From Oscillospiraceae bacterium (GTDB taxonomy: Bacteria > Bacillota > Clostridia > Oscillospirales > Oscillospiraceae): a stretch of 56,563 bases of DNA. The stretch covers positions 1-56,563 of the forward strand of contig JAAWUC010000003.1 of NCBI GenBank assembly GCA_022804995.1, written 5' to 3'. The position numbers and the translations under genes were made by a program. The first letter of the stretch is position 1, and each line of letters starts with the position of its first letter. The notes under the pieces are model-generated. The model had not been told where the DNA came from. It saw only the letters and a list, made by a program, of their open reading frames with translations, and did not search any database. Positions 12,387 through 22,562 of the stretch are shown piece after piece.

Positions 12387-12806
12387 ATGAGCTTTTTTGA
12401 CGAGTTGACCCAGAAGGCCAGAGTAGTAGCCGCCACCGCCTCGGAGAAGGCGCGGGAGGCCGCCGATTCCGCCAAGATCTCCGCCGCCATTCTCACGGAG
12501 AAGCGGGAGCTGGACCGGAACTACCGGGCCATCGGCCAGTGGTACGTGGGCGAGTATCAGGAGGTTCCCGAGGCCATCGCGGACGTGGTGGCGGCGGTGA
12601 AGGCGTCCCAGGAGAAGATCGAGCAGCTCCAGGCCACCCGGGAGAAGGCGGAGAACGAGGAGGCCTCCATAGAGACGGAGGCGGTGGCCGGCGTGGTCTG
12701 CCCGGTGTGCGGGAAGATCAGCGACTCCAAATTCTGCCCCCACTGCGGCGCGCCCCTGGAGAAGAAGGAGCCCGCCGGCGGGCCGGCGGAGGAGGCCGGG
12801 GAGTAA
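12387..12806 (+). CDS. Zinc-ribbon coiled-coil protein of unknown function
   Basis: 139 residues. Residues about 5-95 are a long amphipathic helix region rich in Ala, Glu and Lys, probably a coiled coil. A four-cysteine zinc ribbon follows: CPVCG near 108-112 and CPHCG near 121-125. The tail is acidic and low in complexity. This layout is common among small Oscillospiraceae proteins but I do not know a function. It has its own promoter and a GC-rich hairpin downstream, so it is monocistronic. Confidence 0.75.
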   Translation: MSFFDELTQKARVVAATASEKAREAADSAKISAAILTEKRELDRNYRAIGQWYVGEYQEVPEAIADVVAAVKASQEKIEQLQATREKAENEEASIETEAVAGVVCPVCGKISDSKFCPHCGAPLEKKEPAGGPAEEAGE

Positions 12807-12825
12807 GCCCGGAATCCATAGAGAA

Positions 12826-12856
12826 GCCCCGCTCCGGAGGAGCGGGGCCTTGCCGC
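12826..12856 (+). terminator. GC-rich hairpin after the zinc-ribbon gene
   Basis: Stem GCCCCGCTC / GAGCGGGGC around CGGAG (12826-12849). The tail is CTTGCC with no real T run, so termination is plausible rather than certain. Confidence 0.55.
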
Positions 12857-12882
12857 CGGATGAGGCTTTCGAAAATTTCCTC

Positions 12883-12911
12883 TTGCATCCCGGCGGAAAC
12901 CGTGATATAAT
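12883..12911 (+). promoter_or_regulatory. SigA promoter of the aromatic amino acid operon
   Basis: TTGCAT (12883-12888), exactly 17 bases, perfect TATAAT (12906-12911). Transcription should begin near 12918, just ahead of the leader-peptide ribosome site AAAAAAGGAG (12923-12932). Confidence 0.88.
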
Positions 12912-12942
12912 GCCACCAGCTTTAAAAAAGGAGCTCTTTCCC

Positions 12943-13002
12943 ATGATGAATACCGCCCTCCACACCGCTTACTTCTACTTTACCTTTATCTACCACAAGT
13001 AG
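12943..13002 (+). CDS. Tyr/Phe-rich leader peptide of the aromatic operon
   Basis: A 19-codon frame starting ATG-ATG, encoding MMNTALHTAYFYFTFIYHK, with AAAAAAGGAG 10 bases upstream. Six of the eight residues 10-17 are Tyr or Phe (three TAC; one TTC and two TTT). It lies between a strong promoter and an intrinsic terminator, directly ahead of DAHP synthase. This is the layout of attenuation leader peptides such as PheL of enterobacteria. It is too short for routine gene callers. Stalling at Tyr/Phe codons would report shortage of charged tRNA-Tyr or tRNA-Phe. Confidence rests on the coincidence of ribosome site, codon content, RNA structures and downstream genes. Confidence 0.88.
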   Translation: MMNTALHTAYFYFTFIYHK

Positions 13003-13094
13003 ATAAGGGTTGTTTTGCTGCGGTGAGAAGGCAGGGCTGAGGAAAGTCCATTCAGGGTCTTACAGTGAAACAACACTGTAGGACCCTTTTATAT
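12982..13094 (+). promoter_or_regulatory. Transcription attenuator (pause, antiterminator and terminator hairpins)
   Basis: Three alternative RNA hairpins can be read. (1) Pause/protector: 12982-12993 pairs with 12999-13010, twelve base pairs with one wobble, loop CACAA; its left arm contains the last Phe/Ile/Tyr codons. (2) Antiterminator: GTTGTTTTGCTG (13009-13020) pairs with CAGTGAAACAAC (13063-13074), twelve continuous pairs including two wobbles. (3) Terminator: AGGGTCTTACAGTG (13054-13067) with CACTGTAGGACCCT (13074-13087), then a T-rich run. Hairpin 2 uses the arm of both 1 and 3. A ribosome stalled on Tyr/Phe codons would open hairpin 1 and allow 2; a ribosome at the stop codon would cover part of 13009-13020 and allow 3. 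Confidence 0.85.
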
Positions 13095-13125
13095 TTTCAA
13101 AAATGCAGATTGGAGTGTTGTCAAT

Positions 13126-14160
13126 ATGATCGTCATCCTGAAAAAGAACGCGGAGAAACAGCAGGTGGAGCTCTTCGACCAGTGGCTCCACAGCATGGGC
13201 CTGGAGACCCACAAGTCCATCGGCGAGAACCACACCATTGTCGGCCTGGTGGGGGACACCTCCCGGGTGGATATCGAGAGCATCATGGCCCTGGACATCG
13301 TGGAGACCGTCAAGCGCATCCAGGAGCCCTATAAAAACGCCAACCGGAAGTTCCACGAGCAGGACACCGTCATCACCCTCTCCAATGGGGCGAAGATCGG
13401 CGGAGGCCACTTCCTGGTCATGGCCGGACCCTGCTCCGTGGAGACGGAGGAGCAGATCATCTCCGTGGCCGAGAGCGTGAAGGCCGCGGGAGCCCAGGTC
13501 CTCCGGGGCGGCGCCTTCAAGCCCCGCACCTCCCCCTACGCCTTCCAGGGGCTCCACGAGGAGGGCATCCGCCTGCTGCTGAAGGCCAGGGAGGCCACCG
13601 GACTGCCTATTGTCACGGAGATCATGGACGCCAAGCACCTGCCCCTTTTCGAGGATATCGACATCATCCAGGTGGGGGCCCGGAATATGCAGAACTTCGA
13701 GCTGCTCAAGGAGCTGGGGAAGCTGCGCAAGCCGGTGCTCATCAAGCGGGGCATGGCCAACACCCTCCAGGAGCTGCTTATGAGCGCCGAGTACGTCATG
13801 GCCGGGGGTAACGAGCAGGTCATCCTCTGCGAGCGGGGCATCCGCACCTTTGAAACCGCCACCCGGAACACCATGGACCTGAGCGTGATCCCGGTGCTCC
13901 ACCAGCTCACCCACCTGCCGGTGGTGGTGGACCCCAGCCACGCCACGGGCCGCTGGGAGCTGGTGGCCCCCATGGCCCTGGGGGCCACGGCCTGCGGGGC
14001 CGACGGGCTCATCATCGAGGTCCACAACGACCCGGAGCACGCCCTGTGCGACGGCCCCCAGAGCCTGCGGCCGGAGAAGTTCACGGACATGATGGAGAAG
14101 GTCCGGGCCATCCGGCCCTACGCCGACCGCTCCTTTACCACAGGTGGCCTCCATGGTTGA
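13126..14160 (+). CDS. aroF: 3-deoxy-7-phosphoheptulonate (DAHP) synthase
   Basis: 344 residues. First committed step of the shikimate pathway: phosphoenolpyruvate plus erythrose 4-phosphate. Residues 1-70 form the ferredoxin-like regulatory domain of the AroF/Thermotoga type (MIVILKKNA...GDTSRVDIESI). The TIM barrel follows with MAGPCSVET (about 98-106), RGGAFKPRTSPYAFQG (about 124-139), IQVGARNMQNF, KRGM and VDPSHATGRWE, which carry the metal and phosphate ligands. The N-terminal domain usually mediates feedback inhibition by Tyr or Phe. First structural gene after the attenuator; it overlaps tyrA. Confidence 0.96.
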   Translation: MIVILKKNAEKQQVELFDQWLHSMGLETHKSIGENHTIVGLVGDTSRVDIESIMALDIVETVKRIQEPYKNANRKFHEQDTVITLSNGAKIGGGHFLVMAGPCSVETEEQIISVAESVKAAGAQVLRGGAFKPRTSPYAFQGLHEEGIRLLLKAREATGLPIVTEIMDAKHLPLFEDIDIIQVGARNMQNFELLKELGKLRKPVLIKRGMANTLQELLMSAEYVMAGGNEQVILCERGIRTFETATRNTMDLSVIPVLHQLTHLPVVVDPSHATGRWELVAPMALGATACGADGLIIEVHNDPEHALCDGPQSLRPEKFTDMMEKVRAIRPYADRSFTTGGLHG

Positions 14161-14998
14161 GACGGTAGGCGTTGTGGGCCTGGGCCTCATCGGCGGCAGC
14201 ATGGCCAAGGCCATCCGCAAGTATACGGACTGCACCCTCCTGGGCTATAACCGCAGCGGTTCCGTCCTCAGCCAGGCTCTGGACGAGGGGGTGCTGGACG
14301 GGGTGCTGACAGAGGAGAAGCTCTCGGAGTGCGGCCTGGTCATCATCGCCCTGTACCCGGAGGCCACGGTGGAGTATGTCACCAGGCACCGGGACCAGTT
14401 CAAAAAGGGCGGCATCGTCATGGACTGCGGCGGCGTGAAGGGCGTGGTCTGCGGCCCCCTGGAGGAGGTGGTGAAGGACGCCGGGTTCTGGTTCGTGGGA
14501 GGCCACCCCATGGCGGGCATTGAGCGCTCCGGCTACGCCCACGCCTTCCCGGAGCTGTTCCAGGGGGCGTCCCTGATCCTCACGCCATACCCCGGCACGC
14601 CCCAGAGCTGCCTGGATGAGATCTGGGAGCTGGCCCGGAAGCTGGGCTTTGGGCACCTCCAGCCCTCCACCCCGGCCGAGCACGACCATATTATCGCCTA
14701 CACCTCCCAGCTGGCCCATGTGGTGAGCTGCGCCTACGTGGGCAGCCCCTCGGCTCCCAACTTTGCGGGCTTCTCCGCCGGGAGCTTCAAGGACATGACA
14801 AGGGTGGCCAAGCTCAACGAGGAGATGTGGACGGAGCTGTTTCTGGAGAACCAGGACGCCCTGGTCCGGGAGATCGACACCCTGGTGGAGGAGCTGGCGG
14901 CCTTTGCCTACACCATCCGCCGGGGGGACCGGGAGCGTTTAAGGGATATGCTCAGGCACGCAAGAGAGATTAAGGAAGCCATTGACAAGGACTGCTGA
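14153..14998 (+). CDS. tyrA: Prephenate dehydrogenase
   Basis: 281 residues. Oxidative decarboxylation of prephenate to 4-hydroxyphenylpyruvate, the tyrosine branch. A Rossmann NAD site opens the protein (VGVVGLGLIGGSMAKA), then GGVKG (about 93-97), GGHPMAG (about 114-120) and the helical dimer domain with HDHIIAYTSQLAHV. No chorismate mutase is fused; PheA supplies that activity. The ATG at 14153 overlaps the aroF stop by 8 bases and is preceded by CAGGTGG; a GTG at 14144 in the same frame would add three residues. Confidence 0.93.
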   Translation: MVETVGVVGLGLIGGSMAKAIRKYTDCTLLGYNRSGSVLSQALDEGVLDGVLTEEKLSECGLVIIALYPEATVEYVTRHRDQFKKGGIVMDCGGVKGVVCGPLEEVVKDAGFWFVGGHPMAGIERSGYAHAFPELFQGASLILTPYPGTPQSCLDEIWELARKLGFGHLQPSTPAEHDHIIAYTSQLAHVVSCAYVGSPSAPNFAGFSAGSFKDMTRVAKLNEEMWTELFLENQDALVREIDTLVEELAAFAYTIRRGDRERLRDMLRHAREIKEAIDKDC

Positions 14999-15012: not shown

Positions 15013-15804
15013 ATGAATACCAGCTATATCACCGACTACTACAACAGCTACAACGAGGACGAGCGGACCAAATCCCGCCACGGCAGCGTGGAATTCACCA
15101 CCAACATGAAATATATCCGGGCCTATGTCCCCCAGGGCGGGAAAATCCTGGACGTGGGCGCGGGCACCGGGGTCTACTCCATGGCCCTGGCTATGGACGG
15201 CTACGATGTCCACGCCATGGAGCTGGTGGAGCACAATATTGAGATTTTCCGGGAGAACCTGCGTGCCTGCGGGGCGGAGATTCCGGTGGAGCAGGGCGAC
15301 GCCATGGACCTGAGCCGCTTCGCGGACGAGAGCTTCGACGCGGTGCTGCTCTTCGGGCCGCTGTACCACCTGTACGACAAGGCGGACAAGCTCACTGTTC
15401 TCCGGGAAGCCAAGCGGGTGGTAAAGAAGGGCGGGTATATTTTCGCGGCCTACTGCATGAACGAGGCCGTCATTATCCAGGAGGGTTTCAAGGACGACGG
15501 CAGCGCCATGATGGACTACCTGACCAAGGGGATGATTACTCCAGACTATCACTGCATCTCCAAGCCGGCGGACCTCTTTGAGATGGTGCGGCTGGAGGAC
15601 ATCGACGAGCTCAACCGGGAGACCGGCCTGCGCCGGGAGAAGATTGTCGCTTCCGACCTCTTCTCCCACTATATGAAGGACCGGATTGACAGCTTTTCCG
15701 ACGTTGTCTATCAGACCTATGTCAAATACCATCTGTCCATCTGTGAGCGGCCCGACCTCATCGGGGCCACCAACCACAGCCTGGATATTCTAGTCAAGGA
15801 GTGA
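15013..15804 (+). CDS. Class I SAM-dependent methyltransferase
   Basis: 263 residues. The SAM-binding motif I is ILDVGAGTGVYSMALA (about 45-60), with the acidic residue after strand 2 in VHAMEL, motif II-like QGDAMDLS and FDAVLLFGPLYHL, and a post-motif KKGGYIFAAYC. The substrate is not evident. It is embedded between tyrA and aroB with a 14-base gap before it, and its stop overlaps the aroB ribosome-site region, so it is part of the aromatic operon. That may point to an aromatic or shikimate-derived acceptor, but this is inference from position only. Confidence 0.85.
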   Translation: MNTSYITDYYNSYNEDERTKSRHGSVEFTTNMKYIRAYVPQGGKILDVGAGTGVYSMALAMDGYDVHAMELVEHNIEIFRENLRACGAEIPVEQGDAMDLSRFADESFDAVLLFGPLYHLYDKADKLTVLREAKRVVKKGGYIFAAYCMNEAVIIQEGFKDDGSAMMDYLTKGMITPDYHCISKPADLFEMVRLEDIDELNRETGLRREKIVASDLFSHYMKDRIDSFSDVVYQTYVKYHLSICERPDLIGATNHSLDILVKE

Positions 15805-15809
15805 TGGTT

Positions 15810-16859
15810 ATGCAGACGGTCATGGTCAACGCATCCGCGTCCTACCCCGTCCACATCGGCGAGGGCCTGCTGGACAGGGCCGGGGAGCTCATTGCCGATA
15901 TCACAAAGTCCCGCCGCTGCGCCATCGTGACGGACAGCTCCGTGGGGCCTCTCTACGGCGGGCGGGTGCGGGATTCCCTGGAAAAGGCCGGGTTTGCCTG
16001 CCTGGTTTACACCTTCCCCGCCGGGGAGCAGAACAAAAATCTGTCCACCTATGGAAACATTCTGGAGTTTCTGGCCCAGAATAAGCTCACCCGCTCCGAT
16101 TTTGTCATCGCCCTTGGGGGCGGCGTGACGGGGGATATGGCAGGCTTCGCCGCCGCCACCTACCAGCGGGGTGTCGACTATATCCAGGTACCCACCACCT
16201 TCCTGGCCGCGTCGGACTCCTCCGTAGGGGGCAAGACCGCCGTGGACCTGGAGGCGGGGAAGAACCTTGTGGGGGCCTTTCACCAGCCGAAAATGGTCCT
16301 CTGCGATACGGACACCTTCCGGACGCTGCCTGGGGATACCTTTGCCGACGGCATGGCGGAAACCCTCAAGCACGGCCTGATTGCCGACGCGGACTTCTTC
16401 GAGACGCTGACGGACGGCGCAAACCCGCCTGTTGACATGATGGTCCGCAAAAACGTGGAGATCAAGTCCGCTGTGGTCCGGGAGGACGAGTTCGAGCGCG
16501 GAACCCGGAAGCTCCTGAACTTCGGCCACACCCTGGGCCACGCCATTGAGAAGATCAGCGGCTTCTCCGTCACCCACGGCCACGCGGTGGCCATCGGCAT
16601 GGTGCTGGCCTGCCGGGCGGCGGAGCGGCTGGGGTACAGTCCCGCCGGGACCCTGGAGCGGGTGGTCAGGGCCAACGAGATGTACCGCCTGCCTACGGAG
16701 TGTCCCTACACAGCGGAGCAGGTCTACGACGCCGCCACCGGCGACAAGAAGCGGGACGGCGGCAGCATTGACGTGGTAGTGCTGGAGCGCGTCGGGCAGG
16801 CCCGGACCGTCCGCCTGGACATGGAGGGCCTGCGGACCTTCGTGGAGGCCGCGCTATGA
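15810..16859 (+). CDS. aroB: 3-dehydroquinate synthase
   Basis: 349 residues. Converts DAHP to 3-dehydroquinate with NAD+ and a divalent metal. Signatures: GGGVTGDMAGFAAATYQRG with the NAD-binding GGG, VPTTFLAASDSSVGGKTAVD, the zinc ligands Glu in DGMAETLKHG, His in FGHTLGHAIE and His in HGHAVAIGM. The ATG at 15810 is favoured because AAGGAG (15797-15802) is at normal distance; GTG 15801 and ATG 15804 are too close. It overlaps the next gene by 4 bases (ATGA). Confidence 0.95.
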   Translation: MQTVMVNASASYPVHIGEGLLDRAGELIADITKSRRCAIVTDSSVGPLYGGRVRDSLEKAGFACLVYTFPAGEQNKNLSTYGNILEFLAQNKLTRSDFVIALGGGVTGDMAGFAAATYQRGVDYIQVPTTFLAASDSSVGGKTAVDLEAGKNLVGAFHQPKMVLCDTDTFRTLPGDTFADGMAETLKHGLIADADFFETLTDGANPPVDMMVRKNVEIKSAVVREDEFERGTRKLLNFGHTLGHAIEKISGFSVTHGHAVAIGMVLACRAAERLGYSPAGTLERVVRANEMYRLPTECPYTAEQVYDAATGDKKRDGGSIDVVVLERVGQARTVRLDMEGLRTFVEAAL

Positions 16860-18031
16860 ACCTGACCATCACGCCCACACGGCTCTCGGGGACCGTCACC
16901 CCGCCTCCCAGCAAATCCCAGGCCCACCGCCTGCTCCTCTGCGCGGCCCTGGCGGGAGGGGAGAGCCGGATTGAGAATCTGGCGGACTCCCAGGATATCC
17001 AGGCCACCCGGCGGTGTATGGCGGAGCTGAAAACAGAACGTAATTCTCTCCCTCACTTCGACTGCGGGGAATCGGGCTCCACCCTGCGCTTTCTCATCCC
17101 CATCGCCCTGGCCCTCCGGGGCGGCGGGGTGTTCACCGGGCACGGGCGGCTCATGGAGCGGCCCCAGAAGCCCTACTTTGACATCTTCGACGAAAAGGGC
17201 GTTCGATATGAGCAGCGGGACGGCGTACTGACCGTCCAGGGGAAGCTGCCCCCCGGCGTCTACCGCCTGCCTGGGAATGTGTCCAGCCAGTTTGTCACCG
17301 GCCTGCTCTACGCCCTGCCCCTGCTGGAGGGGGATTCGGAGCTTGTGCTGACCACCCCCCTGGAGAGCCGCGGGTATGTGGATATGACCCTGGAGGCCCT
17401 GGCCCGCTTCGGTATCCACGGCACCGAGCGGGAAAACGGCTTCCTGATTCCCGGCAGGCAGAAATACTGCCCCGCCCAGGCTTCCGTGGAGGCCGACTGG
17501 TCCCAGGCCGCCTTCTGGCTGGCCGCCGCCGCTCTGGGAAACCCCGTACAGCCGGTAGGGCTGGAGGAGGACTCCTCCCAGGGGGACCGGGTCATCGGGG
17601 ACTACTACGTCCCCCTGTGCCGCCCGGGGGATGTGGACATCGACCTCTCCCAGTGTCCGGATCTGGCCCCGCCCCTGGCGGTGATGGCGGCAGTGCGCTG
17701 CGGGACCACCCGGCTGGTGAACGCCGGGCGGCTGCGCCTCAAGGAGAGCGACCGCCTTGCCTCCATCACACAGGTGCTCCGCGCCCTGGGGGCGGATGTG
17801 GAGGAGGGGCCGGACTTTCTCATGATTCAGGGCCGGGATGCTCTGGCGGGGGGCTGTACGGTGGACTGCTGCAATGACCACCGGATTGCCATGATGGCCG
17901 CTGTGGCCGCCGCCCGGTGCGAAAGCCCGGTGACGCTCACCGGCGCGGAGTGTGTGGCGAAATCCTACCCCGATTTTTGGGCACACTACCGCATGTTAGG
18001 AGGGGTTTTCCATGAACACACTGGGAAATAA
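16856..18031 (+). CDS. aroA: 3-phosphoshikimate 1-carboxyvinyltransferase (EPSP synthase)
   Basis: 391 residues. Transfers enolpyruvyl from PEP to shikimate 3-phosphate. Visible are PPSKSQAHRLLLCAAL (about 17-32, the Lys/Ser substrate site), GESGSTLRFLIP (about 75-86, in place of the enterobacterial GNAGTAMRPL loop that also determines glyphosate sensitivity), GNVSSQFVTGLLYALPL, LRLKESDRLASI and DHRIAMMAAVAA. The protein is shorter than the 420-430 residue enterobacterial type, as in other Clostridia. Start overlaps aroB by 4 bases; the end overlaps aroC by 20 bases. Confidence 0.94.
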   Translation: MNLTITPTRLSGTVTPPPSKSQAHRLLLCAALAGGESRIENLADSQDIQATRRCMAELKTERNSLPHFDCGESGSTLRFLIPIALALRGGGVFTGHGRLMERPQKPYFDIFDEKGVRYEQRDGVLTVQGKLPPGVYRLPGNVSSQFVTGLLYALPLLEGDSELVLTTPLESRGYVDMTLEALARFGIHGTERENGFLIPGRQKYCPAQASVEADWSQAAFWLAAAALGNPVQPVGLEEDSSQGDRVIGDYYVPLCRPGDVDIDLSQCPDLAPPLAVMAAVRCGTTRLVNAGRLRLKESDRLASITQVLRALGADVEEGPDFLMIQGRDALAGGCTVDCCNDHRIAMMAAVAAARCESPVTLTGAECVAKSYPDFWAHYRMLGGVFHEHTGK

Positions 18032-19085
18032 ACTGAAAGTCACCGTCTTTGGACAGTCCCACGCCCCCGCCATCGGCTGCGTCATCGACGGTCTGCCGTC
18101 CGGCTTCGCGCCGGATATGGAGCGGGTATCCGCCTTCATGGCCCGCCGCGCCCCGGGGCGGAACGCCTGGTCCACCAACCGGAAGGAGAGCGATACCCCG
18201 GAGATCCTCTCCGGCCTGGTGGAGGGCAGGACCTGCGGCGCGCCGGTGTCTATGCTCATCCGCAACAGTGACCAGCACAGCAGGGATTACGCCGGGCTCA
18301 AGCGCACCCCCCGGCCCTCCCACGCTGATTATACTGCTATTATCAAATATGGCGGCAATTACGATATTCGCGGCGGCGGGCAGTTCTCCGGGCGGCTGAC
18401 GGCCCCGCTGTGCTTCGCAGGGGCATTGGCTTTACAGCTGCTGGAGCAGAAGGGGATTACCGTTGCCGCCCACATCGCCCAGATTGAGGGCGTGTTTGAC
18501 AGCGCCCCAGATTTTGCCTCCGTAGCCCGGACAGAGCTGGAGACGCTGCTGAAAAAGCCCTTCCCCGTCTTCTCCGACGACGCCGGCATAAGGATGCGGC
18601 AGGCCATCGAGGCGGCGCGGCTGGACGCGGACTCCGTGGGCGGGGTGATCCGATGCTTCGCCCTAGGCCTCCCGGCGGGGATCGGGGAGCCTATGTTCGG
18701 CGGAGTGGAGAACCGGCTGGCAGCGGCCCTGTTCGGGATCCCCGCCGTCCGGGGGGTGTCCTTCGGCACGGGCTTTGCCGCTGCCGGGATGCGGGGCAGC
18801 GAGCACAACGACCCCTTTTTCATGGACGGGGACCGGGTCTCCGCCCGGACCAACCACGCCGGAGGCGTGCTGGGGGGGATCACCAGCGGCCTGCCCCTGG
18901 TGGTGAACATCGCCGTCAAGCCCACCGCCTCTATCGCCAAGGAGCAGGAGACGGTGGATCTGGAGACGCGGGAGAGTACCAGCCTGGTCATCCACGGCCG
19001 GCACGACCCCTGCATTGTACCAAGGGCGGTGCCGGTGGCGGAGGCAGTGACGGCACTGACGGTGTTGGATATGCTGCTGGAGTGA
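18012..19085 (+). CDS. aroC: Chorismate synthase, divergent clostridial type
   Basis: 357 residues. Forms chorismate from EPSP with reduced FMN. Both catalytic His are kept: H17 in FGQSHAPA and H103 in RPSHADYT. Conserved motifs differ from E. coli: FGESHG is FGQSHA, RPGHAD is RPSHAD, and the RGGGRSSARET loop is RGGGQFSGRLT. Later motifs (LPAGIGEP, GVSFGTGFAAA, NHAGGVLGGI, GRHDPCIVPRAVPVAEA) are typical. I regard it as a functional member of a divergent Clostridia clade. GGAGG upstream lies within the end of aroA. Confidence 0.92.
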   Translation: MNTLGNKLKVTVFGQSHAPAIGCVIDGLPSGFAPDMERVSAFMARRAPGRNAWSTNRKESDTPEILSGLVEGRTCGAPVSMLIRNSDQHSRDYAGLKRTPRPSHADYTAIIKYGGNYDIRGGGQFSGRLTAPLCFAGALALQLLEQKGITVAAHIAQIEGVFDSAPDFASVARTELETLLKKPFPVFSDDAGIRMRQAIEAARLDADSVGGVIRCFALGLPAGIGEPMFGGVENRLAAALFGIPAVRGVSFGTGFAAAGMRGSEHNDPFFMDGDRVSARTNHAGGVLGGITSGLPLVVNIAVKPTASIAKEQETVDLETRESTSLVIHGRHDPCIVPRAVPVAEAVTALTVLDMLLE

Positions 19086-19137: not shown

Positions 19138-19662
19138 ATGAAGTATTTGATAAAATATTTTATAGATTTTGCAGTGCTGATTTTCCTGTATGCTTCCGTC
19201 TTTTTCAGAAGGTGGAGGCCCCAGGGCAGAGACGTTCTGTTTGTCAACACTCTCATGTATGCCTATCTCTCGGCAGTGCTCTTTTTTACCATGATGCAAG
19301 TGATTGTGTCCATCCCGTTCCTGCTGGACCACCCCTATAAGCCCATGAATCTTGTGCCGTTTATTGACGTTTCTTTGAGGAGAGGGGATTTTTTCAGGCA
19401 AGTGGGCTTGAATATCATTATGACTATGCCCTTCGGGTTCCTGTTTCCTCTGACCAGGGACAAAAAGGCCAAATTCAGCGCAACGGTGTTTTCCTGCTTT
19501 TTGATGAGCTTGGGTATCGAACTCCTACAACCGTTCTTCGATCGCTCTGCGGATGTCACGGACCTAATTACCAATGTAATCGGTGGGGTGCTGGGATATG
19601 GATTTTATGCTGTTTTTAAGCCAATCACCTTTTGGGTTTTAGAGCGTTTGAAAACCAGATGA
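19138..19662 (+). CDS. VanZ-like membrane protein, AT-rich insertion in the aromatic operon
   Basis: 174 residues with four or five transmembrane helices and the VanZ-family core: NLVPFIDV near 77-84, NIIMTMPFGFLFPL near 99-112 and LGIELLQPFFDRSADVTDLITN near 131-152. VanZ confers low teicoplanin resistance in vancomycin clusters, but most relatives have unknown roles. The gene and its flanks (about 19090-19770) are far richer in A and T than the adjoining aroC and pheA, and codon use differs, suggesting later acquisition. It splits an otherwise tightly overlapping operon with gaps of 52 and 108 bases. Confidence 0.85.
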   Translation: MKYLIKYFIDFAVLIFLYASVFFRRWRPQGRDVLFVNTLMYAYLSAVLFFTMMQVIVSIPFLLDHPYKPMNLVPFIDVSLRRGDFFRQVGLNIIMTMPFGFLFPLTRDKKAKFSATVFSCFLMSLGIELLQPFFDRSADVTDLITNVIGGVLGYGFYAVFKPITFWVLERLKTR

Positions 19663-19770: not shown

Positions 19771-20907
19771 ATGAATCTACAGGACTGCCGGGAGCGGCTG
19801 GACCAGATCGACGGCCAGCTGGCCGCCCTCTTCAAGGAGCGCATGGAGACCGTCAAGCTGGTGGCGGACTACAAGAAGGAGCACAACCTCCCCGTCCTGG
19901 CCTCCGGTCGGGAGCGGGACATCCTCTACCGGGTGACGGGTCTGTGCGGTCCGGAGCTGGAGGAGTACACGAAGATTCTCTACAGCACCCTGCTGGAGCT
20001 GAGCCGGGACTACCAGGAGGACCGGCTGTCCACCGGCGAGTCCCGGCTCTGCCGGGATATCCTGGCCGCGGCGGAGTCCACCGGGGACTTCCCCAGCCGG
20101 GCGGTGGTGGCCTGCCAGGGCGCCGAGGGGGCCTACTCCCAGATCGCCTGCTGCAAGATGTTCTCCCTGCCCCAGATCATGTACTTCGGCCGGTTTGACG
20201 GGGTATTCCGGGCGGTGGAGACGGGGATGTGCCGGTACGGCATCCTGCCCATTGAGAACTCCTCCGCCGGCTCCGTCACCGAGGTCTACGACCTGATGGA
20301 GAAGTACAACTGCAAGATTGTCCGCAGTCTGAAGCTGAAGATCGAGCACCGCCTCCTGGCCCGGCCCGGTGTGAAGCTGGAGGATGTGAGGGAGGTGGTG
20401 GCCCACGAGCAGTCCCTCAACCAGTGCGGCGAGTTTTTGAAGAACAGCGGCGTCAAGATCACAGTCTTCTCCAACAACGCCGCCGCCGCCAAGTACGTTT
20501 CCGAGAGCGAGCGGACGGATCTGGCGGCTATCGCCTCCGAGAGCTGCGCGGAGCTCTACGGCCTGCGGGTCATCAGCGGCCGGGTGGCCAACACCGACCA
20601 CAACTACACCCGGTTCATCTGCATCTCCAAGTCCCTGGAGATCTTCGAGGGGGCCAACAAGATCACCTTTGTGGCCTCCGCCAGCCACCGCCCCGGCTCC
20701 CTCTACAGCCTCATCGCCAAGTTCGCCACCCGGGGGCTGAATATCTGCAAGCTGGAGAGCCGCCCCATCCCCGGCAAGGACTTCGAGTTCCGCTTCTACT
20801 TCGATGTGGACGCCTCGGTGAAGAGCGGGGACACACAGACCATCCTCAGCCAGCTGGAGAAGGAGGACTTTTTCACCTTCCTGGGGGCCTACAGCGAGGT
20901 GTTTTAG
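19771..20907 (+). CDS. pheA: Bifunctional chorismate mutase / prephenate dehydratase
   Basis: 378 residues in three parts. Residues 1-85: AroQ-class chorismate mutase helices (LQDCRERLDQIDGQLAALFKERM, with the Arg, Lys and Glu positions of the active site). About 108-285: prephenate dehydratase with GAEGAYSQIA, GILPIENSSAGSV, HEQSLNQC and the catalytic NYTRFICIS. About 296-378: ACT domain, including KLESRPIPGKDFEFRFYFD, the Phe-binding regulatory region. It makes phenylpyruvate and supplies prephenate for TyrA. GGGAGG precedes the ATG. The stop is immediately followed by the aroE-aroK ATG. Confidence 0.95.
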   Translation: MNLQDCRERLDQIDGQLAALFKERMETVKLVADYKKEHNLPVLASGRERDILYRVTGLCGPELEEYTKILYSTLLELSRDYQEDRLSTGESRLCRDILAAAESTGDFPSRAVVACQGAEGAYSQIACCKMFSLPQIMYFGRFDGVFRAVETGMCRYGILPIENSSAGSVTEVYDLMEKYNCKIVRSLKLKIEHRLLARPGVKLEDVREVVAHEQSLNQCGEFLKNSGVKITVFSNNAAAAKYVSESERTDLAAIASESCAELYGLRVISGRVANTDHNYTRFICISKSLEIFEGANKITFVASASHRPGSLYSLIAKFATRGLNICKLESRPIPGKDFEFRFYFDVDASVKSGDTQTILSQLEKEDFFTFLGAYSEVF

Positions 20908-22131
20908 ATGGAGTACGGCCTTCTGGGAGAGAAGCTGGGCCACAGCTTCTCCCCCCAGCTCCACCGGGCCCTGGCGGGCTATGACTACCGGCTGCTGCCC
21001 ACCCCCCGGGAGGAGGTGGAGGAGCTCTTCCGCCGCCGGGACTTCCGGGGGCTCAACGTAACCATCCCCTACAAACAGACGGTTATTCCCCTGTGCGACG
21101 AGATCGACCCCCGGGCCTCCGCCATCGGCGCGGTGAACACGGTGGTCAATCGGGGCGGGCGGCTCACCGGGTACAACACCGACATCGACGGCCTCATCTA
21201 TCTGGCAAAGCGGGCCGGGGTGGATATGGCGGGGAAAAAGGTGGTGATTCTGGGCTCCGGCGGCACCAGCCGCACCGCCCAGGCCGCCGCCCGGGAGCTG
21301 GGAGCGGTGGAGATCGTGGTTGTCTCCCGCCGGGGGGAGGACAACTACGAAACGCTCCCCCGCCACGCCGACGCCGGGGTCCTCATCAACACCACCCCCG
21401 TGGGGATGTACCCCGGCTGCGGCGAGGCGCCGGTGGAGATATCCCTGTTTCCCCGGTTGACCGGAGTGCTGGACGTGGTGTATAATCCTCTTCGTACCGC
21501 CCTGCTGATGGGGGCGGAGGAGCGGGGGATCCCGGCCTCCTGCGGCCTGCCCATGCTGGCGGCTCAGGCATGGCGGGCAGCGGAGCTCTTCACCGGGGAG
21601 GATATCCCCGAAAGCCGCCTGGAGGCGGCCCACGCCGATCTGTTGCGCCAGGTCCGGAACGTAGTACTCATCGGAATGCCCGGCTGCGGCAAGTCCACTG
21701 TGGGCCGGGCCCTGGCTCGGCGGCTGGGGAAGGAGTTTCTGGATCTGGACCAGCTGGTTGTGGAGGAGGCCCGCAAATCCATCCCGGCCATCTTCGCCCA
21801 AGAGGGGGAGGAGGCATTCCGGGCTATGGAGAGCCGGATTGTCCGGCGGGCCGGGGGCCGCACCGGCTGCGTCATCAGCACCGGAGGCGGCGTTGTCACC
21901 CGGCGGGAGAATTACGCTCCCCTCCACCAGAACGGGGTGCTCGTCCATCTGACCCGCAGTCTTGACCTGCTGCCCAAGGCGGGCCGTCCCGTGTCCCAGC
22001 GCACGGATCCGGCGGCGCTGTGGCGTCAAAGGGAGGGGCTGTACCGGGCCTTCGCCGATGCGGAGGCGGACAACAACGGGCCTCTGGAGGCCACGCTGGA
22101 GCAAATCGAAAAGGAGCTGAACGCGCTGTGA
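20908..22131 (+). CDS. aroE-aroK: Shikimate dehydrogenase - shikimate kinase fusion
   Basis: 407 residues, two enzymes in one chain. About 1-245 is shikimate dehydrogenase: substrate motif GHSFSPQLH, catalytic K56 in NVTIPYKQ, D92 in GYNTDIDG, NADP loop LGSGGTSRTA (about 115-124) and NTTPVGMYP. About 250-407 is shikimate kinase: Walker A GMPGCGKST (256-264), substrate Asp in DLDQLV (about 279-284), GGG at 326-328 and a lid region with RPVSQRTD. The two act in consecutive steps (dehydroshikimate to shikimate to shikimate 3-phosphate). The junction has no frameshift and the linker is very short. Confidence 0.94.
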   Translation: MEYGLLGEKLGHSFSPQLHRALAGYDYRLLPTPREEVEELFRRRDFRGLNVTIPYKQTVIPLCDEIDPRASAIGAVNTVVNRGGRLTGYNTDIDGLIYLAKRAGVDMAGKKVVILGSGGTSRTAQAAARELGAVEIVVVSRRGEDNYETLPRHADAGVLINTTPVGMYPGCGEAPVEISLFPRLTGVLDVVYNPLRTALLMGAEERGIPASCGLPMLAAQAWRAAELFTGEDIPESRLEAAHADLLRQVRNVVLIGMPGCGKSTVGRALARRLGKEFLDLDQLVVEEARKSIPAIFAQEGEEAFRAMESRIVRRAGGRTGCVISTGGGVVTRRENYAPLHQNGVLVHLTRSLDLLPKAGRPVSQRTDPAALWRQREGLYRAFADAEADNNGPLEATLEQIEKELNAL

Positions 22132-22562
22132 AGCTGCTGTTTCTCAACGGTCCCAACCTGAATATGCTGGGCATCCGGGAGCCGGATATCTACGGAAAGC
22201 AGACCTACGCCGACCTGGAGCGCTACATCCGGGACTTCTGCGGCGAGCTGGGCGTGGACTGCGAGATCCTCCAGTCCAACCACGAGGGAGTTCTGGTGGA
22301 CGCCATTCAGTCCGCTTACGGCCAGGCGGACGGCATCGTCATCAACCCCGCCGCCTATACACACACCAGCGTGGCCCTGCTGGACGCGCTGAAGGCCGTG
22401 GACATCCCGGCGGTGGAGGTCCACCTGTCCGACGTCAGCAGGCGGGAGGACTTCCGGCAGATCTCCTATGTCCGGCAGGCCTGCCGCGCCACCTTCGCCG
22501 GGTACGGCTTTGAGGGCTACCGGCTGGCGGCGGAGCGCCTGCTTTGTCAAAAGGGACAATAA
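22128..22562 (+). CDS. aroQ: 3-dehydroquinate dehydratase, type II
   Basis: 144 residues, normal for the dodecameric type II enzyme. Signatures: LNGPNLNMLGIREPDIYG (7-24; Tyr of YG is the base), QSNHEGVLVDAI, INPAAYTHTSVALLDAL and EVHLSDVSRREDFR with the catalytic His. GTG start at 22128 overlaps the stop of the fusion gene (GTGA), with AAGGAG at 22111-22116; the earlier ATG in frame would lie inside the kinase. Last gene of the aromatic operon. Its reaction sits between AroB and the AroE domain. Confidence 0.94.
   Translation: MKLLFLNGPNLNMLGIREPDIYGKQTYADLERYIRDFCGELGVDCEILQSNHEGVLVDAIQSAYGQADGIVINPAAYTHTSVALLDALKAVDIPAVEVHLSDVSRREDFRQISYVRQACRATFAGYGFEGYRLAAERLLCQKGQ

Follow-up and report, generated by a model that had tools for sequence, protein, structure and literature searches.

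Ribosome-mediated attenuators of the trpL, pheL and hisL type in Proteobacteria consist of a leader ORF that carries control codons, stems 1:2, 2:3 and 3:4 that exclude one another, and an intrinsic terminator. T-boxes sense the charging state of tRNA and control a terminator. The initial annotation of the locus described here presented leader-peptide attenuation as well described in Proteobacteria and T-boxes as the more frequent control of amino acid genes in Firmicutes. It was right that no T-box is present at this locus, but leader-peptide attenuation has already been reported in Firmicutes; the accessible texts describe a His leader peptide before hisZ/hisS* in bacilli (PMC2965389) and a Leu/Ile leader peptide before ilvD in Staphylococcus aureus (PMC5794164). 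Those leaders concern other amino acids, other genes and another class, and in the S. aureus model, as the accessible text presents it, the antiterminator fold leaves the terminator stem intact (PMC5794164).

The mechanism that we describe is of a known kind, and partial sightings of it are in print. Stav et al. 2019 (PMC6429828) analyzed five genomes, Clostridium novyi NT among them, and according to the accessible text their Fig. 6b shows a pair of uORF candidates that contain Phe and Tyr and are linked to genes of shikimate metabolism. These candidates resemble the leader here in being short ORFs with F and Y codons beside shikimate genes. The accessible text names neither the genome nor the gene of the two, nor an antiterminator; they may be identical with the leader family treated below. 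Brewer et al. 2021 (PMC8632094) described the uORFC-13-1 motif upstream of aroF, followed by a terminator and proposed to act by attenuation, with 24 examples from Acholeplasma and environmental sequences and one or more Phe codons within a run of U. It shares with our locus a uORF before aroF, a terminator and a proposed attenuation mechanism, and differs in coming from Acholeplasma and environmental sequences and in a description, within the accessible text, that is without Tyr. A word search of PMC11109978 returned no phenylalanine, tyrosine or aroF. In literature searches that extended to the main text of open-access papers, we found no description of a Tyr/Phe leader as an aroF control across Clostridia.

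The window, the whole 56,563-nucleotide stretch of Oscillospiraceae DNA that was analyzed, very probably carries a classical ribosome-mediated attenuator that responds to the charging of tRNA-Tyr and tRNA-Phe and governs an aro operon. By sequence, computed folding and comparison, its anatomy comprises a leader ORF, a Tyr/Phe codon run, two helices (P0 and P1) that together form the 1:2 stem, an antiterminator as 2:3 and a terminator as 3:4. Like trpL, pheL and hisL, it combines a control-codon leader ORF, exclusive stems and an intrinsic terminator before the first structural gene. Unlike them, it has no Rfam match, uses Tyr and Phe codons together, precedes aroF and a run of common-pathway genes, and has an interrupted 1:2 stem with control codons lying between and inside its 5' arms.

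All features below lie on the forward strand. The upstream ORF ends at 12806, and a GC hairpin (12826-12843) lies between it and the promoter. The promoter had been called a consensus one, a description that suits its −10 hexamer (TATAAT, 12906-12911), which is perfect and preceded by an extended TG (TG-A-TATAAT; TGATATAAT), but not its −35 hexamer (TTGCAT, 12883-12888; 17-nt spacer), a weak element that matches TTGACA at 3 of 6 positions; a sigma-70 promoter rule applied to the leader region called nothing at 12883-12911. Boxes like TTGC..TGCTACAAT are visible by eye in genus relatives. The ribosome-binding site named in the initial annotation, GGAG (12930-12933), is present 9 nt before the ATG at 12943, and the leader ORF MMNTALHTAYFYFTFIYHK (12943-13002, stop TAG at 13000-13002) has the 19 sense codons ascribed to it, with a Tyr/Phe cluster that is kept in the genus and beyond. 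The control codons TAC TTC TAC TTT ACC TTT ATC TAC (12970-12993) comprise 3 Tyr and 3 Phe. With a ribosome-binding site and repeated codons for the end products of the pathway, the leader appears translatable. A pattern search of the bacterium's own genome returned no further copies of the leader block; the pattern, whose loop length was fixed, picked up just 5 of 25 genus genomes. Further downstream, GAGGAAAGTCC (13039-13049) resembles an RNase P RNA motif; it is absent from the near relative L020 and we consider the likeness to be chance.

P1 pairs 12982-12993, inside the Tyr/Phe codons, with 12999-13010, which holds the leader stop codon, through 12 bp with one G-U; the hairpin over the leader end was found exactly where it had been placed. 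The antiterminator pairs GUUGUUUUGCUG (13009-13020) with CAGUGAAACAAC (13063-13074); folding recovers the 12 bp first proposed, two of them G-U, at −12.8 kcal/mol. The terminator is a 14-bp hairpin (13054-13067 with 13074-13087) directly followed by TTTTATATTTT, with a U-rich tail at 13088-13098. The 3' arm of the antiterminator overlaps the terminator 5' arm, its loop and the first base of its 3' arm, and the bases common to both structures (13063-13067 and 13074) uphold the view that the two are mutually exclusive. Six terminator-like sites were called in 1 kb on both strands, compared to 1.2 in shuffles, and the terminator and P1 are two of them.

Absent from the elements listed at first is an outer helix, P0. 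Its 5' arm CACCGC (12963-12968, with an extension at 12955-12961) lies in the codons just before the Tyr/Phe run, and its 3' arm GCGGTG (13020-13025, with an extension at 13030-13037) closes around P1; G13020 is common to P0 and the antiterminator. In computed folds without a ribosome, the window leader forms P1 and the outer P0, which encloses the antiterminator 5' arm, and antiterminator pairing is then zero. Because P0 encloses P1 and excludes the antiterminator, the two helices together would correspond to the 1:2 stem of a classical attenuator. Ala codons before the run may be kept as part of the P0 arm. A pair of Ala codons near the start of the Tyr/Phe run occurs in 35 of 134 leaders vs 8 of 78 in a downstream control stretch; present in so few leaders, it is ruled out as a general feature.

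Aligned with regions upstream of aroF elsewhere, the leader frame, the Tyr/Phe codons and the stems are conserved both among close relatives and among many distant ones, and this supports a Tyr/Phe leader-peptide attenuator before the shikimate operon. The genus alignment holds 20 same-genus leaders; L015 contains Ns and was left out here and in the structure tests. Terminator pairing is intact in 98.9% of cells, and in 8 of the pairs both partners have changed; 0 of 500 shuffles reach this level. P1 is paired in 95.6% of cells and has one pair that is A-U in 12 sequences and C-G in 8, while its outermost pair is unpaired in 10 of the 20. P0 is paired in 95.0% of cells, with covariation little above shuffles (66 and 34 of 500). 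The nine-pair core of the antiterminator forms in all 20 sequences, and its variation consists mainly of G-U exchanges, only one pair being double-changed. As many double-changed cells arise in 93 of 500 shuffles, and the covariation score of 0.135 compares with 0.149 for the same structure slid by +3 columns. Compensatory change within the genus, proposed as a test of the stems, is seen in the terminator and in one P1 pair but not above controls in the antiterminator. Within the genus the antiterminator is backed by pairing, not by covariation, and its covariation comes from other genera.

As aligned, P1 and the antiterminator overlap by 2 nt in 7 of the 20 genus sequences and by 0 in the remainder, and so P1 alone cannot exclude the antiterminator there. 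An antiterminator-excluding role for P1 is ruled out on this ground in the window and the genus; P1 may possibly contribute in other loci.

To model translation, the RNA was folded up to the terminator loop with a ribosome assumed to cover −17 to +12 around its A site, a footprint taken from general knowledge. Across 117 loci the expected antiterminator pairs were 7.8 for a ribosome stalled on Tyr/Phe and 3.8 for no ribosome; a ribosome at the stop codon gave 1.1 (114 loci); stalling exceeded the ribosome-free state in 100 of 117 loci and the stop state in 109 of 114. The corresponding values for the window are 13.3, 0.0 and 0.0. Pairing without a ribosome was at most 0.3 in 11 of 12 genus loci folded. 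L019 is an exception that folds the antiterminator unaided. Masking Tyr/Phe codons frees more pairs than masking other sense codons of the same leader (7.2 vs 5.0; better in 81 of 106). The masking profile is broad, in that codons before or early in the run free the antiterminator nearly as well and the effect fades toward the run end; the Tyr/Phe codons are distinguished not by position alone but by their identity.

The length of the RNA also matters in these folds. At equilibrium the window antiterminator prevails only when the RNA ends near 13074, and masking of the last Tyr codon (12991) gives 0.01 even at that end. With RNA extended to 13080, antiterminator pairing never exceeds 0.07, whatever the ribosome state, and the terminator takes over. 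The antiterminator advantage is transient in equilibrium folding, and the switch would therefore have to be kinetic, acting during RNA synthesis. For RNA ending before the terminator 3' arm, the folds predict that a ribosome on the control codons favors the antiterminator and a ribosome at the stop favors the terminator.

We propose that tRNA charging gates the operon as follows. When both Tyr and Phe are plentiful, the ribosome would reach the stop codon and cover P1 and the start of the antiterminator 5' arm; P0 would re-form behind it, the antiterminator would be blocked, the terminator would form, and transcription would stop downstream of 13087, in the U-rich tail. A shortage of either amino acid would stall the ribosome on the Tyr/Phe codons, where it would cover the P0 5' arm and P1 and leave the antiterminator 5' arm free to capture the emerging terminator 5' arm, so that RNA polymerase enters aroF. 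Without translation, P0 and P1 would form and transcription would also end.

P1 perhaps also pauses RNA polymerase and thereby lets the ribosome catch up. A candidate pause spans 13012-13022, with G(−10) at 13012, T(−3) at 13019, G(−2) at 13020, C(−1) at 13021 and G(+1) at 13022. These positions are invariant in the 20 genus sequences, and the RNA end at C13021 lies 11 nt after P1, within TGCG, which presumably fits the elemental pause consensus. At least 5 of 6 consensus positions are found downstream of P1 in 28 of 115 loci, compared to 9.2 in shuffles and 4 in a window placed further on. A polymerase pause downstream of P1 is suggested, and it remains a suggestion because the motif overlaps the antiterminator and P0 arms and is shared by descent. 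The accessible text of PMC6336406 attributes the consensus pause sequence to Larson et al. 2014.

Structure in divergent loci was tested on the first and class surveys described below. P1 was found in 126 of 134 loci and was followed by a terminator in 117 of those 126. Its score beats all 20 shuffles in 48 of 123 loci where about 6 are expected; this shuffle control is the one to use, as a comparison of own with foreign arms is unfair to a helix that was picked as the best stem. The segments of the antiterminator test (P1 3' arm onward vs terminator 5' arm and loop) were not selected by mutual pairing. Own-locus antiterminator duplexes are more stable than cross-locus ones (−13.4 vs −9.0 kcal/mol; better in 84 of 106 loci, no better in 22; p=1.5e-13), and the same holds for the P0 arms (−9.8 vs −6.9; better in 77 of 106, no better in 29; p=8.6e-9), although both p-values are too optimistic because the loci are related by descent. 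Long matched P0 arms that differ between loci occur in L054, L070, L079 and L095. A median of 7 of the 12 antiterminator pairs fall in the terminator 5' arm, which makes the two structures mutually exclusive. By pairing and computed folding, then, the antiterminator is predicted to exclude the terminator, and the 1:2 stem to exclude the antiterminator.

These same loci bear on a different assignment of roles, in which the attenuator is kept but P1 is the switching helix, P0 is a by-product of conserved codons, and a ribosome at the stop codon disables the antiterminator simply by covering its arm. P1 is strong and conserved, and P0 covariation within the genus is weak, as that scheme would have it. 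In 39 of 106 loci the best antiterminator recruits 3 or more P1 3'-arm bases, and P1 itself would compete with it there; among 82 loci with a strong antiterminator the ribosome at the stop reaches its 5' arm in 78. Against this, the best antiterminator uses no P1 base in 48 of the 106 loci, and the genus overlap is the 2 nt or none given above. One overlap count permits up to 2 shared nt by construction, and a free fraction of 0.99 is nearly given, because the antiterminator was sought only after P1. The P0 arms match better within than between loci, and the antiterminator hardly pairs in the ribosome-free genus folds. On balance we consider it unlikely that P1 is the switch, and we retain P0 and P1 together as the 1:2 stem.

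Relative to chance, Tyr/Phe leaders are abundant upstream of aroF. An ORF was scored as a leader if 6 or more of 12 residues were Tyr/Phe. A search of 60 related genomes recovered the DAHP synthase in 47, and the 80 loci chosen are the best 80 of 586 and hence biased to similarity. The first survey covered 120 distinct aroF upstream regions (L001-L126 minus 5 duplicates and L104, which was too short); 88 have a leader, compared to 3.0 in shuffles, and 32 do not. Carriers of the leader include Anaerotignum neopropionicum (L113), Angelakisella massiliensis (L079), Emergencia sp. (L072), Yanshouia hominis (L070) and Aminicella lysinilytica (L062). Among 190 amino-acid pairs, Tyr and Phe are the most enriched in ORFs upstream of aroF in these regions. 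The class survey drew on 147 genomes, 109 of them with a match, and on 108 regions representing the better matches (L220 was left out), of which 101 finish with an ATG at the presumed start of aroF and at least 8 are second copies of a genome. Leaders were scored in 56 of the 108, compared to 3.5 in shuffles, with 52 lacking one; this count, the set of 134 leaders and the structure tests include L217 and L243, whose frames are chance ones inside T-boxes. In the phylum survey (199 genomes, 178 with a match), 17 of 69 regions have a leader, compared to 1.2 in shuffles, and 52 do not; these regions comprise 29 with loci among the best matches and 40 hand-picked down the list rather than a random draw, and one of them, L254, is the class-survey region L184. 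In the same loci, a Tyr/Phe ORF lies upstream of other long ORFs in 26 of 696 cases, and such an ORF occurs in 33 of 1500 random windows. After near-duplicate removal, the residues of the 134 leaders comprise 19.1% Phe, 14.1% Tyr and 0.7% Trp. Two or more Tyr together with two or more Phe occur in 127 of them, and 23 contain Trp.

This composition also bears on the idea that the locus combines a simple terminator with a short translated ORF whose effect is to raise or insulate aroF expression, no amino acid being sensed. Upstream short ORFs have been proposed to help downstream translation (PMC4833913, accessible text), but the identity of the Tyr/Phe codons, the antiterminator pairing and the placement of a terminator between leader and aroF would have no role in such an arrangement, and we judge it very improbable.

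Several further observations were made in the surveys. A second leader type in other families (L176, L185, L200, L203, L252 and L260) has a longer peptide, sometimes with Trp codons, and a motif like F-S-A/T-G-Y after the Tyr/Phe run; the P1 search fits it poorly. An aroF close to that of the window, with a Tyr/Phe-rich ORF upstream, occurs on contigs titled Thermoguttaceae, Oligosphaeraceae, Lentisphaerae and Treponema (L051, L073, L086, L100 and L112), through either horizontal transfer or misbinning. Two genomes have head-to-head aroF copies about 570 nt apart (G126:C1:2072667-2075216, L157 and L240; G196:C1:928630-931170, L158 and L241), with only weak Tyr/Phe frames (5-6 in 12) between them. 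In L035, a glmS ribozyme match (1155-1309) lies on the opposite strand, a few hundred nucleotides upstream of the aroF leader.

T-boxes serve the same gene in other Clostridia (RF00230); there the RNA binds tRNA directly and has no leader peptide. The 108 class regions divide into 54 with a leader only, 15 with a T-box motif only, 2 with both and 37 with neither. Of 40 loci scanned with RF00230, 14 are confirmed as T-boxes, namely 13 of the 17 motif regions and L202. L217 and L243, the two regions scored as both, belong to the Rfam T-boxes, and their Tyr/Phe frame is a chance one. In the phylum survey, the T-box motif occurs in 12 regions, none with a leader. Across the class and phylum surveys there is no true co-occurrence of leader and T-box upstream of one aroF, and many aroF genes have neither within 330 nt.

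Given such T-boxes upstream of aroF in other class members, it could be asked whether a T-box or another ligand-binding riboswitch controls this operon too, the Tyr/Phe frame being incidental. Ten T-box matches with E values of 0.001 or lower occur in the bacterium's own genome. One is above the Rfam cut-off, and another, L134 (G000:C17:828-1068, minus strand; 72.5 bits against a cut-off of 93), precedes a gene that reads by eye as tyrosyl-tRNA synthetase (tyrS). The same model, RF00230, is unmatched in the window leader. A search of the whole window with Rfam release 15 at gathering score returned only 5S rRNA and no leader family, and a relaxed search of 12800-13300 gave 13 matches, none above gathering score and all chance-like. 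Rfam likewise finds nothing at the leader in 18 Tyr/Phe-leader loci scanned, and the Tyr/Phe codons are far in excess of chance. We therefore give almost no credence to riboswitch control here and keep to the leader-peptide attenuator.

Downstream of the leader, a same-strand run with overlaps or short gaps reads aroF-tyrA-(MTase)-aroB-aroA-aroC-(VanZ-like)-pheA-aroEK-aroQ. Above NCBIfam cut-offs are aroF, encoding DAHP synthase (13126-14160; PRK08673 and TIGR01361), aroB (15801-16859; TIGR01357), aroA (16856-18031; TIGR01356, just above), aroC (18012-19085; TIGR00033) and aroQ, a type II dehydroquinase with an inferred start (22128-22562; TIGR01088). Below cut-offs, and named by best NCBIfam match, are tyrA of the prephenate dehydrogenase family (14144-14998; E 3e-48) and pheA, chorismate mutase-prephenate dehydratase (19771-20907; E 7e-58); the aroE-aroK fusion (20908-22131) matches shikimate dehydrogenase (E 3e-51) and shikimate kinase (E 1.5e-30), both also below cut-offs. 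Two further genes with best-match names below cut-offs sit within the shikimate run, one like SAM-dependent methyltransferases (15013-15804) and one VanZ-like (19138-19662). No promoter or terminator was called in the widest intergenic space, the 108 nt that precede pheA. Elsewhere in the run, a weak terminator-like site was called at 14469, and a promoter-like site (TTGACC-18-TATAAT, 11/12) lies inside the aroE part of aroEK at 21457-21486. The whole run is likely carried on one transcript. At the upstream end of the window, positions 1-98 contain the 5S rRNA, cut at the window start.

Finally, these results bear on the wider family. We give even odds to a larger claim, namely that the leaders form a large undescribed family of Tyr+Phe attenuators that is a main aroF/shikimate control across Clostridia in place of the T-box, with codons ahead of the Tyr/Phe run kept for encoding the P0 arm and with P1 also setting a TGYG pause about 11 nt downstream. 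Firmicutes amino-acid genes are often assigned to T-boxes. In this class aroF is served by two unrelated devices, and the swap between T-box and leader peptide can thus be compared directly; this bacterium's own genome has a T-box match before an apparent tyrS and the leader before its aro genes. The family provides a covariance-model target that Rfam leaves unmatched and marks small frames that annotation may miss. For the organisms themselves, the leader would predict which Clostridia raise aromatic amino acid synthesis when Tyr or Phe runs short.
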